Shown: positions 11,939 through 46,308 of the stretch, piece after piece | How positions within the stretch are numbered: the stretch's first letter is position 1 | Layout: each line of letters opens with the position of its first letter | Assembly: GCF_001610895.1 (NCBI RefSeq) | Contig: NZ_CP011273.1 | Location: 5,270,001-5,334,000 of the forward strand | Length of the DNA stretch: 64,000 nucleotides | Source of the DNA: Planctomyces sp. SH-PL62 | GTDB taxonomy: Bacteria > Planctomycetota > Planctomycetia > Isosphaerales > Isosphaeraceae | Direction of reading: 5' to 3' | Notes under the pieces: model-generated | Database searches by the model: none | What the model saw: only the letters and a program-made list of their open reading frames with translations | Told to the model about the DNA's origin: nothing | Made by a program: the position numbers and the translations under genes

Positions 11939-12211
11939 ATGCTGGTCTTGACGCGGAAGCTCATGGAGAGGCTCTATATCGGCAACGACGTCTGCGTGAC
12001 GGTCGTTCGGCTGGAGGGGGGCCAGGTGCGACTGGGGATCGAGGCCCCGCGCGAGGTGGCGGTCGTCCGGGCCGAGCTCGTCCCGGAGCGCCTGGCGGAG
12101 ACGCCGGTCCGGCGAGCCCGCAGCGACGAAGCGGTCGTCGACGCCGCGGTCAGGCGTCCACAAGTCGCGGCTCGTGGAAGCGATACCCCACGCCGCGAAC
12201 GGTTTCAATGA
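11939..12211 (+). CDS. csrA: Carbon storage regulator CsrA (translational regulator)
   Basis: A 90-residue RNA-binding protein that binds ANGGA motifs in mRNA leaders and regulatory RNAs. The first approximately 50 residues are a full CsrA fold (MLVLTRKLMERLYIGND, then GGQVRLGIEAPREVAVVRAEL). The key N-terminal and REVAVVR RNA-binding residues are conserved. The C-terminal 35 residues (arginine/acidic, no homology) make it longer than the usual 60-75. A strong GGAGGG precedes the ATG. Its 3' end overlaps the convergent regulator gene by 62 bp, so antisense effects between the two are possible. Confidence 0.92.
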   Translation: MLVLTRKLMERLYIGNDVCVTVVRLEGGQVRLGIEAPREVAVVRAELVPERLAETPVRRARSDEAVVDAAVRRPQVAARGSDTPRRERFQ

Positions 12212-41585: not shown

Positions 41586-44015
41586 TCATTCGGGGTAGAT
41601 CAGGTAACGCTCACGGACGGCCCCGAAGTCGGCCAACTCCTGGGTCCACAGGGCCTCGATCTGGTCCCGGCTCTTGAGGTCGAGGATCGCCTGGTAGGTG
41701 GCCTCGTCGCAGAGCAGGGTGGGCATGCGCTCGGGCTTCCAGTCGTCCTTGTAGTCGCGACGGAGCGTCAGCGCGAGGGCCAGGCCCAGCTTGATCGGGT
41801 CGAACGCGGCCCGGTCGGTGATCTGGATCTGCACCCCGCCGCACGTCTCCCCCTTGTACTGGCGCTCGGTCGGCGAGAATTCCAGGGGGGTGAAGCTCAC
41901 GCCCGGGACGCCCTGGGCGTCGAGCGAGCGGGCCCAGGCGACCGGCTTGATCCAGGGCGCCCCGACGCGCTCGAAGGGCGTGTCGGTCCCGCGTCCGGTC
42001 GCCAGGTTCGTCCCTTCCAGCCAGCCCACGCCGGGATACAGCAGGGCCTCGGTCAGGCTCCGCATGTTGGGCGAGGGATTGACCCAGAGCAGGCCCGTGC
42101 GATCGTAGGCGGCCCCTCGGGTCCAGCCCTCGCATGGGACGACTTCGAGGTCGGCCTCGATCTTGCGCTCGGCGTTGTACAGCCTCGCCAGCTCGCCGAC
42201 CGTCATGCCGTGGCGGATCGGGATCGCGTGGTAGGCGACGAACGACTCGAAGCTCTCGTCGCGCACCGGCCCGCCGAAGTCGACGCCGCCGATCGCGTTG
42301 GGGCGGTCGAGCACCACCAGCTTCTTGCCGTTGGCCTTGGCGGCTTCCAGCACCAGTCCCAGGGTGGAGGCGTAGGTGTAGTAGCGGACGCCGATGTCCT
42401 GGATGTCGTAGACCAGCACGTCCAGGTCGGCGAGGTCCTCATCCTGCGGCTTGCGCTTCTTGCCTTCGTACAGGCTGACGACCGGGAGCTTGGTCGCCTC
42501 GTCGACGCCGCTGGTGATCTTCTCGTGATCGAGGAGGCCGCGGATGCCGTGCTCGGGGCTGAACAGCTTGACGAGCTTGACGTCGGGGGCGGCGAACAGG
42601 ACGTCGATCGTGGACCGGCCGTCCGCCGAGCGTCCGGTGTGGTTGGTGACCAGGCCGACCCGCTTCCCCTTCAGGGAGTCGAAGCCGCGGGCCGCCAGGA
42701 CGTCGATCCCGCACGTCACCGTCGCGAACGGCGTGGGGGCGGGGGACGATTCGGAGTCCGAAGCGGTGGAGGCCGGGGCGCGGACGGCCGGCGGGTCGAC
42801 GAGCGCCGCGGCGGCCAGCGTGGCGACGTCGCGCCGGAGCGTCGACGGCGACGGGTTGGACTTCGGGTGGAGGCGGCTGGTGAGGATCACGACGAACGTC
42901 TGGGTCTCCGGGTCGATCCAGACGCTCGTGCCGGTGAAGCCGGTGTGGCCGAAGCTCGACGGGCCGAACAGCTCGCCCTTGGGGCTGCTGAAGCCGGTCT
43001 CCACGTCCCAGCCCAGCCCGCGACGCTGCCCCGCCGGGGTGTCGGCCGGGTCGCGCATGAGTCGGACGGTCAGAGGGGCGAGGACGCGATAGCCCGACGG
43101 GGCCGCGCCGTAGTACAGGAGCATCCGGGCGAAGTTCGCGACGTCGTCGGCCGTGGCGAACAGGCCCGCGTGACCCGCCACGCCACCGAGGGCCCGCGAG
43201 CGGGGATCGTGCACCACGCCCCGGACGAAGGCGTCCCCTTCCTTCTCGGTCGGGGCGACGCGGTCCAGGGGCGGCCGATTCGAGGCGTCGCCGGCGGTCG
43301 GCCGGAAGTGGGCGTCGACCATCCCGGCGGGCCCGAACACCCGCTCGTCCGCGAATTCGTCCAGCGGCTTGCCCGACACCTTCTCGACGAGCTTGCCCAG
43401 GATGATGAAGCCCACGTCCGAATAGATGAACTTCGAGCCCGGCCGGGCGACCGGCTGAAGCTCGGCGATCTGCTTCCAGGCCGCTTCAGGCCCGTCCTTG
43501 TAGTCGCCGAGGGCGTTGTCCGGGATCAGGCCGGCGCGGTGTCGCAGCAGGTGGTCGACGGTGATCCGCCCCTTGCCGTGGTTGTCCAGCTCCGGGAAGT
43601 ACTTCACGATCGAGTCGGAGAGGCGGATCTTCCCCTCCTCGATCAGGACCATGACCGAGGTCGCGGTGGCGATCGGCTTGGTCAGCGAGGCCATGTCGAA
43701 GATCGTGTCCCGCGTCATCGGCTCCTCGGTCGGCTCGACGGCGCGCTTGCCGAAGGTCTTCGCGTAGGCGACCCCGCCGCCGCGACCGACCAGGACGACC
43801 GCCCCGGGAACCTTCCCCTCGGCGACCGCCCGCTCCACGACCGCGTCGATGCGGCCCAGGCGCTCGGCGTCGAAGCCGAGCTGCGCCGCCGTCTCCGCGG
43901 TCGGCTCGGGAAGCTCCCGCCCCCGGGCGAGCCCCCCGCTCAAACCGATCGCCGCGATCACGAACCACGCCGCCAGCCGCCTGCCGCCCGTCTGTTTCAC
44001 GATCTTTCCACCCAT
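41586..44015 (-). CDS. Fusion: serine beta-lactamase-like (AmiE/YbbE type) domain + NamZ (DUF1343) exo-N-acetylmuramidase domain
   Basis: An 809-residue secreted protein. The signal peptide is followed by a beta-lactamase/transpeptidase-fold domain (about 45-410) with catalytic SxxK (S110-L-T-K113), YSD as the YxN-like motif and HTG as the KTG-like triad. From about residue 445 a DUF1343 domain follows: GKRVGLVTNHTGRSADG, LFSPEHGIRG, YDIQDIGVRYYTY, LDRPNAIGG and WVNPSPNMRS. In Bacillus the corresponding separate proteins (YbbE/AmiE, YbbC/NamZ) jointly degrade muropeptides. Here they form one chain, implying two-step peptidoglycan recycling outside the cytoplasm. A GTG at 44000 is an alternative start. 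Confidence 0.88.
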   Translation of the reverse strand: MGGKIVKQTGGRRLAAWFVIAAIGLSGGLARGRELPEPTAETAAQLGFDAERLGRIDAVVERAVAEGKVPGAVVLVGRGGGVAYAKTFGKRAVEPTEEPMTRDTIFDMASLTKPIATATSVMVLIEEGKIRLSDSIVKYFPELDNHGKGRITVDHLLRHRAGLIPDNALGDYKDGPEAAWKQIAELQPVARPGSKFIYSDVGFIILGKLVEKVSGKPLDEFADERVFGPAGMVDAHFRPTAGDASNRPPLDRVAPTEKEGDAFVRGVVHDPRSRALGGVAGHAGLFATADDVANFARMLLYYGAAPSGYRVLAPLTVRLMRDPADTPAGQRRGLGWDVETGFSSPKGELFGPSSFGHTGFTGTSVWIDPETQTFVVILTSRLHPKSNPSPSTLRRDVATLAAAALVDPPAVRAPASTASDSESSPAPTPFATVTCGIDVLAARGFDSLKGKRVGLVTNHTGRSADGRSTIDVLFAAPDVKLVKLFSPEHGIRGLLDHEKITSGVDEATKLPVVSLYEGKKRKPQDEDLADLDVLVYDIQDIGVRYYTYASTLGLVLEAAKANGKKLVVLDRPNAIGGVDFGGPVRDESFESFVAYHAIPIRHGMTVGELARLYNAERKIEADLEVVPCEGWTRGAAYDRTGLLWVNPSPNMRSLTEALLYPGVGWLEGTNLATGRGTDTPFERVGAPWIKPVAWARSLDAQGVPGVSFTPLEFSPTERQYKGETCGGVQIQITDRAAFDPIKLGLALALTLRRDYKDDWKPERMPTLLCDEATYQAILDLKSRDQIEALWTQELADFGAVRERYLIYPE

Positions 44016-44189
44016 GTCGAGTCCAATGGGGAGCGAGACGCCCCCGATGCGTCATCCGGTTGCACCGAAGCCCCCATTCTAGCCGCGAGGCGCGGCGTCC
44101 GCCTCTCTGCTCCCGCGATCGACGCGAAGGGCTTCGATCCAGGCCGGCGGCGCGAGGGCTTCGAAATGACCCAAACCAGCCCGCTGACC

Positions 44190-44550
44190 GGAACCCTCAC
44201 GACGACCTCTCCCTTCGTCGTGAACGTTCCAATCAGCGGGCCGGTCGGTTTGAGGTCCCCGACCTGGGAAGGCCGGGGACTGGACGCCCTTGGAAGAAAC
44301 CGGACTGCATCCCAGAGACCTACGACCGCCTCTCCCTCGGTCGTGGACCGCCGTTCTACAGCCGGTTGGCTCGAGTCGGCTCGCCCCCCCCGTCGTCGAG
44401 ACGGGGAGGGACGGAACCGGGTGGAAGAAACCGGCTAGAGATTCAGACCCTCGCGACGACCTCTCCCTTCGTCGCGAAGAACCGTCTCAACTAGCCGGTT
44501 GGCTCGTGCAGGCTCGACGTCTCCCCCGCCTTTCGTGCCGGCGAGGGATC
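44190..44550 (-). ncRNA. Candidate structured RNA: three tandem two-hairpin units with invariant 9-nt loops
   Basis: Hairpin A occurs three times, each with a 9-bp stem around the identical loop CCTCTCCCT: stems 44197-44205/44215-44223, 44320-44328/44338-44346 and 44451-44459/44469-44477. Stem positions 1, 2, 3, 8 and 9 vary between copies but stay paired (for example A-T to G-C, G-C to C-G). Each is followed 40-60 nt later by a second GC hairpin (44255-44280, 44384-44410, 44522-44548). The second hairpins contain A/C juxtapositions that become G-U wobbles on the minus strand, favouring minus-strand transcription, towards the 44015 gene. On that strand the loop reads AGGGAGAGG, with an ANGGA motif. 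Expression is not shown. Confidence 0.5.
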
Positions 44551-44565
44551 GGAACCTTGGTGAAG

Positions 44566-44609
44566 AAAGGGCGAGCGGGGGGTCGTGCGAGGTTTCCCGC
44601 TCGCCCTTT
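44566..44609. terminator. Long perfect inverted repeat next to the hairpin array
   Basis: AAAGGGCGAGCGGG (44566-44579) pairs exactly with CCCGCTCGCCCTTT (44596-44609): a 14-bp stem with a 16-nt loop, ending in TTT on either strand. It could terminate transcription in either direction or be the 5' helix of the candidate RNA. Confidence 0.45.
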
Positions 44610-44665
44610 GGCGGGGAGATCGGATAAACCGATCGTCGCCAGTGGGGTGGCTTCTTACAATGTGT

Positions 44666-44681
44666 CGAGCCTCTCGGCTCG
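44666..44681 (-). other. Small hairpin with GNRA-type loop on the minus strand
   Basis: CGAGCC and GGCTCG form a 6-bp stem around TCTC. Read on the minus strand the loop is GAGA, a stable GNRA tetraloop. This gives slight further support to minus-strand RNA in this region. Confidence 0.35.
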
Positions 44682-45060
44682 GGTCTCTGTCTCCGTCGCA
44701 ACCTTTTGAACCAGTTTGACTTTCGTCTCCGTCTCGCGTCTCTCGTCGTCAACGCCAGGATGAAAAAGCAAAGGCGGTGCCAGAACCTGAAAGCGAGCCG
44801 ATCCGAGGGGCCATTACTCCCGATTCAAGGCCCGCCTCTCGTCGAAATTTCCTGTGATTCAGGGGTTTACGACAATCGAAAAATTTCGGACGCTGGCGTA
44901 GAAAGCCCGATTCCCACCGCGTCTCCCACCGTTCTGCACCCACGGAACGACCACGACCGCACAAGATTCGGGCACAGGCTGCCGAATACATCATCACGCG
45001 GGAGCCGAGGCGACTCGGGTCCTCCTGGTGTGGAGATCCGAGGGGGCGCCAAGGTCGAAT

Positions 45061-46308
45061 ATGGTCGATCGAGAGAAACCGAATCCGGCCGGTCGCGACG
45101 ATCTCGGCCTGGCCGTCGACGCCTGGAAGCTTCAGGGCGATGCCACGCCGCTGGAAGGCTGGTTCATCCGGGAGCTGGGCGAGCAGGGCGACCCGATCCG
45201 ACTCCCCCTCTCGGAGTGGTCGGGCGTGCTCGGTCGTCTCGCGGAGGCGCGCGGTCGCGGCGAGGGCTGGCCGCCCCGGCTCGACGAGCGGCTCACCGGC
45301 TTTTTCCGGATGCTCCTCCGGTTCTCCCGCCCCGACGGCCGGACGGCGGGCCTCGCCCCCGATCGAACCGAGCCCGAGTCGCCGCGCAAATACTGGCGGG
45401 GGCTCCTGGCGACCTTCCGCGAGCCCGACGTGGGGCGAGTCCTCGACTGGTGGTTCCCGGGCCGCGACGTCGACCCCGTACCGCCCCCCCTCCCCGCCTG
45501 GTCGAGCGGCGATCGCGTGCTGGGCGTGCTGCGGGCGGACTGGACGCGCCGGGGCGACTTCCTGACTTTCGACCAGCGCGACGCCGGAGCCGGGACGCGA
45601 TTCGAACTCTACGGCGCCGGAACGCCGTGGCTCTCCTCGGAATGGTCGACGCCCGATCCGTCGACGCCGAGCGTCCTCCCCGAGGCGGCGAAGCCGACGG
45701 CCTGGGCGACCAGCTCGAACGCCGACGTGGCCGAGTGGAGCTTCTCGTCCGGGGGTCGTCGGGTGACCCGCCTGGCCATGATGCTCCGAGGCCGTCGGCT
45801 CGCGATCCTGGCCGACCAGCTCGACGGGCTGCGGCCCGACGACGCGCCGGAGACGCGGCTGGACGTCCCCTCCGGCCTGATCGTCGCCCCCCTGGAAACG
45901 CCCGGCGGTTTCCTCCTGAAGACGGGGGCGCCCGGGAAGTCCGCCCAGGCGATCCTGATCGGTCGCGGCGCGTTGGAGTACGAGGAGGCGTCGCGGCGGA
46001 TGATCGTCCGGCCGCTCGCCGAGGGCGGCGATGCGTGGCTGCCCCTGCTCGTCTCGTGGGACCACGCCCGCCACCGCAAGCCGTTCCGTTGGAACCGCCT
46101 CACGGTGGCCGAGCAAGGCAAGGTCTGCCCGCCCGAGACGGCCTGGGCCGCTCGCGTAACCTGGGGGCGGGACGAGACGTTCGTGGTCTACCGGAGCCTC
46201 GGCCCTCCCGTGAGGAGGTCGTTCCTGGGCTTCTCGACCACCGACCGATTCGTGGTGGGACGCTTCACGCCCGAGGGGGACGTCGAAGCGATCGCGACTT
46301 TGGCCTGA
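45061..46308 (+). CDS. Uncharacterised conserved-looking protein
   Basis: A 415-residue cytosolic protein I do not recognise: no signal peptide, no clear transmembrane helix, no cysteine-rich motif. It is Trp/Arg/Asp-rich with several aromatic blocks (KLQGDATPLEGWFIRELGEQGD; RKYWRGLLATFREPDVGRVLDWWFPGRDVD; GTRFELYGAGTPWLSSEWSTP). The C-terminal half looks beta-rich (RRVTRLAMMLRGRRLAILADQL; TFVVYRSLGPPVRRSFLGFSTTDRFVVGRFTPEGDVEAIATL), loosely like a heparinase-type beta domain. ATG 45061 begins MVDREKPNPAGRDD; an ATG at 45028 would add 11 residues. Codon use is typical of the genome. Confidence 0.7.
   Translation: MVDREKPNPAGRDDLGLAVDAWKLQGDATPLEGWFIRELGEQGDPIRLPLSEWSGVLGRLAEARGRGEGWPPRLDERLTGFFRMLLRFSRPDGRTAGLAPDRTEPESPRKYWRGLLATFREPDVGRVLDWWFPGRDVDPVPPPLPAWSSGDRVLGVLRADWTRRGDFLTFDQRDAGAGTRFELYGAGTPWLSSEWSTPDPSTPSVLPEAAKPTAWATSSNADVAEWSFSSGGRRVTRLAMMLRGRRLAILADQLDGLRPDDAPETRLDVPSGLIVAPLETPGGFLLKTGAPGKSAQAILIGRGALEYEEASRRMIVRPLAEGGDAWLPLLVSWDHARHRKPFRWNRLTVAEQGKVCPPETAWAARVTWGRDETFVVYRSLGPPVRRSFLGFSTTDRFVVGRFTPEGDVEAIATLA

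Follow-up and report, generated by a model that had tools for sequence, protein, structure and literature searches.

The repeated hairpins of the window, which is the whole analysed stretch of 64,000 nucleotides of DNA from Planctomyces sp. SH-PL62, are the tail of a larger predicted non-coding RNA, uncatalogued and strongly conserved in the family Isosphaeraceae. Such an RNA is probably a nutrient-responsive regulatory RNA, the hairpins of which have been multiplied in some lineages. The whole reading, in which a family-wide, sigma-54-dependent regulatory RNA would act via exposed loops on the transcripts of BBP2-porin and AmtB genes, is assigned a probability of about 0.5. The earlier note on this DNA missed the promoter, did not recognise the hairpins as terminators, and did not notice that conservation is highest in the 14-bp inverted repeat.

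The three 9-bp stems with the common loop CCTCTCCCT described in that note are found exactly at 44197-44223, 44320-44346 (with G-T pairing included) and 44451-44477. The 14-bp inverted repeat at 44566-44609 and the small hairpin at 44666-44681 are both present as well. The folding of both strands is more stable than that of dinucleotide shuffles, with z values of -8.05 for the minus strand and -5.35 for the plus strand, which bears out the earlier preference for a minus-strand RNA. That a structured RNA is encoded on the minus strand is considered nearly certain from the sequence comparisons. A search of Rfam with positions 43900-45100 of the window returned six matches up to an E value of 5, none of them reaching the gathering score.

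From its 5′ end, the RNA begins with a variable part, followed by the unpaired block GCCACCCCAC and the GGCGAC...CCGCC stem; next come the core hairpin and another, variable hairpin, and last a long hairpin tipped by GGGAGAGG (Table 1). The conserved core comprises two domains. The predicted transcription start is placed near 44756 by the -12/+1 convention, and the 3′ end falls within or beyond the last unit, with no sharp limit in the window genome. The loop of the core hairpin reads GCCUCGCACGACCC in most relatives and ACCUCGCACGACCC in the window genome. The match of the core covariance model (R1) in the window extends over 44561-44665.

Table 1. Features of the predicted RNA and of its upstream region (positions in the window).
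Feature	Position	Strand	Sequence or loop	Basis and remarks
Candidate activator (bEBP) site, upstream motif	44970..44983	minus	GGCAGCCTGTGCCC	about 200 nt upstream of the promoter
Putative sigma-54 promoter	44768..44782	minus	TGGCAC-N5-TTGC	43-locus comparison
Predicted RNA	44164..44756	minus		promoter position and hairpin model matches
Conserved unpaired 5′ block	44643..44656	minus	AGAAGCCACCCCAC	alignment A2
Domain 1, stem with variable inner hairpin	44610..44640	minus	GGCGAC ... CCGCC	covariation helices 1 and 2
Core hairpin, 12-bp conserved stem	44566..44609	minus		same as the 14-bp inverted repeat of the earlier note
Unit 3, terminator-like hairpin	44419..44506	minus	apical loop GGGAGAGG, 44460-44467	R2 87.1 bits (sequence itself part of the R2 model)
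Unit 2, terminator-like hairpin	44288..44373	minus	loop GGGAGAGG, 44329-44336	R2 69.3 bits
Unit 1, hairpin	44164..44252	minus	loop GGGAGAGG, 44206-44213	R2 60.4 bits; no T-tract in the window genome

The compensatory changes claimed for the stems proved to be real. Of the cells in 59 homologous hairpins, 94.7% are paired, compared with 82.0% in shuffles, and both sides have changed in 139 cells, where 39.6 are expected; none of 500 shuffles, which do not keep relatedness, reaches either the pairing or the change figure, and sliding the partners lowers the pairing to 18-51%. Changes on both sides occur in 13 of the 15 pairs, and the inner stem is 100% paired in the 59 sequences. The alignment of these hairpins (A3) was restricted to those with the exact loop, with seven near-duplicate loci and G009 (cut by the contig) left out, and the invariance of the loop in it is due to this choice. 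Across loci, the exact loop stands at the expected place in 38 of 43. Pairs of the core are formed in 96.3% of cases, and 12 of its 20 pairs changed on both sides; alignment A2 covers 31 of the 45 core rows, and the R1 model was built on 31 sequences. Double changes are present in 5 of the 8 pairs of helices 1 and 2 of domain 1 and in 7 of the 12 pairs of the core hairpin (helix 3), where 99.7% of the cells are paired. The alignment of the whole RNA, which includes 21 of the 28 single-unit RNAs, contains 54 pairs, 36 with double changes, and 91% of it is paired.

The element is one locus in the window genome (6.78 Mb). The next best match of the DNA search has an E value of 0.01, and the hairpin covariance model gives three matches, all within the array. 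The element is therefore not a dispersed repeat, and the plain palindromic repeat family, which was the main alternative of the earlier note, is contradicted by both searches. Among the 45 family genomes, window genome included, 38 were matched by the DNA search, and conservation was best at about 44564-44616, in the inverted repeat rather than in the array. The covariance-model search of Isosphaeraceae genomes, proposed earlier as a check, located the R1 core in 39 of the 45 genomes and in 20 of the 21 genera, with best matches of 80.7-111.8 bits. A sensitive rerun of R1 on the six family genomes without a match gave only 16-20 bits. Elsewhere in the class (397 genomes searched in all) there were only matches of 22-35 bits in seven genomes. 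Homologs outside the family were rejected: nine loci from seven class genomes are without CCTCGCACGAC and even CTCGCACGA, and the printed out-of-family alignments have mainly a GGGCGAGCGGG-type stem in common. A plasmid collection contained no match to the element. A pattern scan of named genomes recovered 28 stretches, including those of Paludisphaera soli, Aquisphaera insulae, Tautonia sociabilis, Singulisphaera acidiphila, and planctomycete MAGs.

The hairpin model (R2) was run on 12 chosen genomes, with G025, G035, G036 and G043 left out. In G033, G034 and G010:C507 the core was not found, yet the putative sigma-54 promoter, the GGGAGAGG hairpin (33.9-46.7 bits) and BBP2 are present, which suggests that the hairpin-plus-BBP2 arrangement is old. 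Other copies have a different composition. Two Singulisphaera loci, L069 (G037) and L089 (G038), contain two tandem core hairpins without the GGGAGAGG hairpin, and a kdpA gene is located near L069; both genomes have a hairpin-bearing copy elsewhere (L130, L131), with BBP2 downstream. A second copy of the RNA in G018 (L059, 5884-5939), with core and hairpin, adjoins genes of a Hen1-type RNA-repair methyltransferase and a lactonase-like protein, and second copies with similar hairpins occur also in G017 and G019.

The number of GGGAGAGG hairpins differs between the RNAs: 28 of 38 have a single one, G026 and G044 have two each, G001 and G002 have four each, and the six genomes of the genus to which the window genome belongs have 3, 4, 5, 5, 6 and 7. 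Therefore, the array of the window is a local multiplication of a terminator-hairpin module. Of the 37 loci scored by script, 30 have a T-tract, defined as at least 7 T in 10, after the last hairpin, and seven do not (G000, G005, G026, G039-G042), so that the GGGAGAGG hairpin at the 3′ end looks like an intrinsic terminator in most loci. These T-tracts and the local duplication of the array would also be expected of a palindromic repeat family or terminator array without any regulatory role; such an explanation is barely credible, considering the single locus in the window genome, the conservation of loops, promoter and neighbourhood, and the presence of the core in nearly every genus of the family.

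On the minus strand, the aligned loci share a block at a distance of 176-233 nt from the core; it reads TGGCAC-N5-TTGC, and we take it, from the consensus, to be a sigma-54 -24/-12 promoter. The block was sought in a 70-nt window 170-240 nt from the core, and 43 of the 45 rows were counted, the downstream copy of two tandem pairs being dropped. All 43 loci have it at this fixed upstream position with at most two mismatches (27 exact, 14 with one mismatch, 2 with two). The form TGGCA[CT]-N5-TTGC is matched by 40 of the 43 loci and has no occurrence in 744 kb of flanks, both strands counted. A gene for RpoN was found in 42 of the 45 family genomes, including all 26 that are at least 90% complete. 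Control of the RNA by sigma-54 is very likely on these grounds. Further upstream, about 160-200 nt from the promoter, a motif sampler detected GGCgNNNcTGCCcA in 28 thinned loci (481 against 335-345 in shuffles); one site per sequence was forced by design, and the shuffles ignore relatedness. Such a distance is usual for the activator sites of sigma-54 promoters. The motif departs from the textbook NtrC site, a point against the preferred reading.

The genes around the RNA point to its possible role. It had been proposed that the array is a structured leader of the AmiE-NamZ-like gene in the window (Pfam: Beta-lactamase, NamZ_N and NamZ_C). NamZ is located downstream in five of the six own-genus genomes (2.7 kb off in G028) and at no other locus, and a look at the approximately 2.5 kb that remain before the contig end of the sixth, G032, revealed none. 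As a neighbour confined to one genus, it was rejected as the general role of the RNA. The last unit has no T-tract in the window genome, and thus read-through into the NamZ gene may occur there. The divergent side is occupied at most loci by homologs of p45028, ylmE or aroA. The gene at 45028-46308 of the window (plus strand), which has no Pfam match, is divergent from the RNA and is kept at many orthologous loci.

The gene downstream on the RNA strand encodes a BBP2 porin in eight genomes (G007, G008, G010, G015, G033, G034, G037, G038). In G008, the order RNA-BBP2-CitMHS_2-AmtB is kept in one direction, and in G044 AmtB is downstream on the RNA strand. In G009, G010 and G013, core-only paralogs stand between AmtB, which is upstream, and CitMHS_2, with all three on the same strand; the aligned start of CitMHS_2 follows after about 130-170 nt. 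An AmtB gene lies within 8.2 kb of the RNA in seven genomes of six genera (G004, G005, G008, G009, G010, G013, G044), in G004 and G005 on the other side of the RNA and on the opposite strand. Since a genome has about 1.5 AmtB copies on average, this number is far beyond chance, which is about 0.4% per genome (binomial about 1e-10, with the distance of 8.2 kb set after seeing the data; the calculation assumes 69 copies, against a table total of 70, genomes of 7 Mb and a single RNA locus in each). Up to about 6 kb was read on each side of the RNA, and in most genera this stretch yielded no gene for BBP2, AmtB or CitMHS_2. The recurrence of these three genes near the RNA suggests nitrogen-linked control, and a link of the RNA to nitrogen uptake is somewhat favoured.

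Such an arrangement could also belong to a cis attenuator. In this scenario, the RNA would be a sigma-54-driven long leader of a BBP2(-CitMHS_2-AmtB) operon, the binding of a regulator or ligand to the core would decide whether the GGGAGAGG hairpin terminates transcription or lets it through, and the stand-alone copies would be relics or RNAs that have turned to action in trans. The eight downstream BBP2 genes, the gene order of G008 and the position of the core-only paralogs before CitMHS_2 would be explained by it. The interval between the RNA and BBP2 or AmtB also fits, as the best sigma-54-like site has at least two mismatches in each of nine loci. However, most genera are without such a gene next to the RNA, yet the promoter and the loops are still conserved, and in the five cases so measured, the distance from the loop to the BBP2 start is about 370-1180 nt. 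The attenuator is rated as rather unlikely. A history that would combine both modes is likewise doubtful: the RNA may have been an ancestral, sigma-54-driven, terminator-bearing cis leader of a BBP2-CitMHS_2-AmtB operon, from which the genes left in most genera while the RNA stayed, and it may now bind the relocated transcripts by GGGAGAGG with CCUCUCCC, the number of loops being tuned by tandem duplication.

According to the preferred reading, that of a regulatory RNA acting via its loops, an enhancer-binding activator, probably responsive to nitrogen or nutrients, would switch the RNA on, and the RNA would accumulate as a stand-alone molecule. The exposed loops would then act, most likely through the pairing of GGGAGAGG with CCUCUCCC in the transcripts of BBP2-porin and AmtB uptake genes, and the extra hairpins of some genera would raise the number of binding loops per molecule. 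In favour of this reading, the amtB genes of G029, G031, G030, G028 and G001 (L242-L246; 5 of 20 stretches) have a TGGCA[CT]-N5-TTGC sigma-54-like site of their own, situated about 400 nt from where the stretch ends. Action in trans by the GGGAGAGG loop is itself a tentative proposal, with odds clearly below even.

The exact complement of the loop, CCTCTCCC, is found 14 times at the bbp2/amtB loci (90.8 kb in total), or 13 times if overlapping copies are excluded, where 4.1 are expected from the control loci. This is a 3.4-fold enrichment (Poisson 1e-4 to 3e-4), in which the control was set after seeing the data and the copies in related genomes are not independent. The count covers 20 stretches upstream of amtB from 19 genomes, and the word is present in 9 of the 20. 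It is the highest of 28 same-composition words at the bbp2/amtB loci and the fifth of 28 in the control loci; five copies are on the other strand, and the 28 words together number 115 on this strand against 87 on the other. In G004, G005 and G040 the word precedes the chosen BBP2 start by 62-102 nt; it stands 53 nt before the earliest BBP2 start in G018 and in a comparable place in G042 (both start codons uncertain), and between BBP2 and amtB in G000, G030 and G031. It is absent before bbp2 in G000, G007, G008, G015, G022 and G028-G031; G037 and G038 have only CTCTCCC there and not the full word, and the stretch read for G020 has too little upstream sequence to cover the bbp2 start. The excess of CCTCTCCC may thus be used as a lead for pairing in trans, and is no proof. 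In G000 (L240, -580 from the end) and G031 (L243, -466), the word lies within a GC-rich inverted repeat right after the BBP2 stop codon, a possible loop-loop partner. A similar candidate, the complement of the core loop before an ATG, matched in 22 of 23 genomes, more than the reversed-pattern control; it was rejected, as recurrent matches such as TCGTGCGAGGTCAAGATG are read here as what looks like conserved in-frame coding sequence.

Protein binding is the other way in which such loops could work. The earlier note proposed a CsrB-like decoy RNA as one possibility and pointed to a csrA gene in the window, and a csrA-like gene is indeed located at 11939 (plus strand; MLVLTRKLMERLYIGND...). In this model, the GGGAGAGG loops would titrate one of many CsrA paralogs, as CsrB and RsmZ do. 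The loop holds GGA on a hairpin, as in the repeated hairpins of CsrB/RsmZ, and amplified hairpins would fit. CsrA genes are present in all 45 family genomes with 4-13 matches each (8 in the window genome), whether or not the RNA is found, and so their presence does not discriminate. Hfq (PF17209) was detected in none of the 45, the control search having matched in 5 of 14 genomes, and a survey, in the portion that concerns Planctomycetia, reports csrA as enriched among predicted sigma-54 targets (PMC12316311). The sequence statistics are contrary to a decoy. Over 38 RNAs (38 of the 45 rows, those without loop or promoter being dropped), GGA is depleted, with 279 seen against 399 expected, and ANGGA is at chance level, with 77 against 82, whereas CsrB of E. 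coli is described in an excerpt of PMC7652899 as having 22 GGA sequences and CAGGA(U/A/C)G elements. Only one loop is present in 28 of the 38 RNAs. Immediately before GGGAGAGG, 70 loops have A in 43 cases, T in 14, G in 10 and C in 3, and therefore the A of ANGGA is not kept. GAGG is equally invariant though it is outside the CsrA consensus, and the hairpins are long and stable, whereas those selected by CsrA in SELEX mostly have four or fewer contiguous pairs, as the same excerpt states (PMC7652899). Titration of CsrA is accordingly judged improbable.

The titration of another RNA-binding protein, which would read the loop GGGAGAGG with its closing pairs and without target pairing, also has little probability. 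It would account for the retention of the loop in 38 of 43 loci while the stems vary freely, and for the copy number of 3-7 in genus g1, that of the window genome, and of 4 in G001 and G002. However, a candidate protein is lacking, and the CCTCTCCC excess at the bbp2/amtB loci is left unexplained.

Several known systems resemble the predicted regulatory RNA by description. CrcZ, CrcY and CrcX of Pseudomonas are presented in the relevant section of PMC8395346 as long (407 nt in PAO1), RpoN-dependent non-coding RNAs with repeated binding motifs; the A-rich motifs of CrcZ bind Hfq, whereas the Isosphaeraceae RNA repeats a GGGAGAGG hairpin loop in genomes where Hfq was not detected, and no homology is claimed. 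NrsZ of Pseudomonas is, in the same section, an intergenic, RpoN/NtrBC-driven, nitrogen-responsive small RNA (PMC8395346). It is about 226 nt long and processed, whereas the nitrogen response of the Isosphaeraceae RNA is suggested by its gene neighbours, and the two are set side by side by description. The Rhodopirellula-1 motif, listed in the portion of PMC2864571 concerned as a candidate structured RNA from Proteobacteria and Planctomycetes, is likewise similar by description; it has no Rfam accession there and is thus outside the Rfam negative. The open-licence literature searched for Isosphaeraceae describes no such RNA.

Judged by its sequence, the element is a new RNA family with a clear predicted promoter and structure. 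A regulatory role is very likely, with pairing in trans, cis attenuation and protein titration as the candidate mechanisms. If the proposed reading is true, the element would give the Isosphaeraceae a regulatory RNA that is well defined in promoter, structure and candidate targets. It suggests a way in which nutrient control by RNA might operate in a lineage that has many CsrA copies and no detectable Hfq. The series of one to seven copies of one hairpin in related species would serve as a natural experiment in which the effect of loop dosage on a regulatory RNA can be followed.
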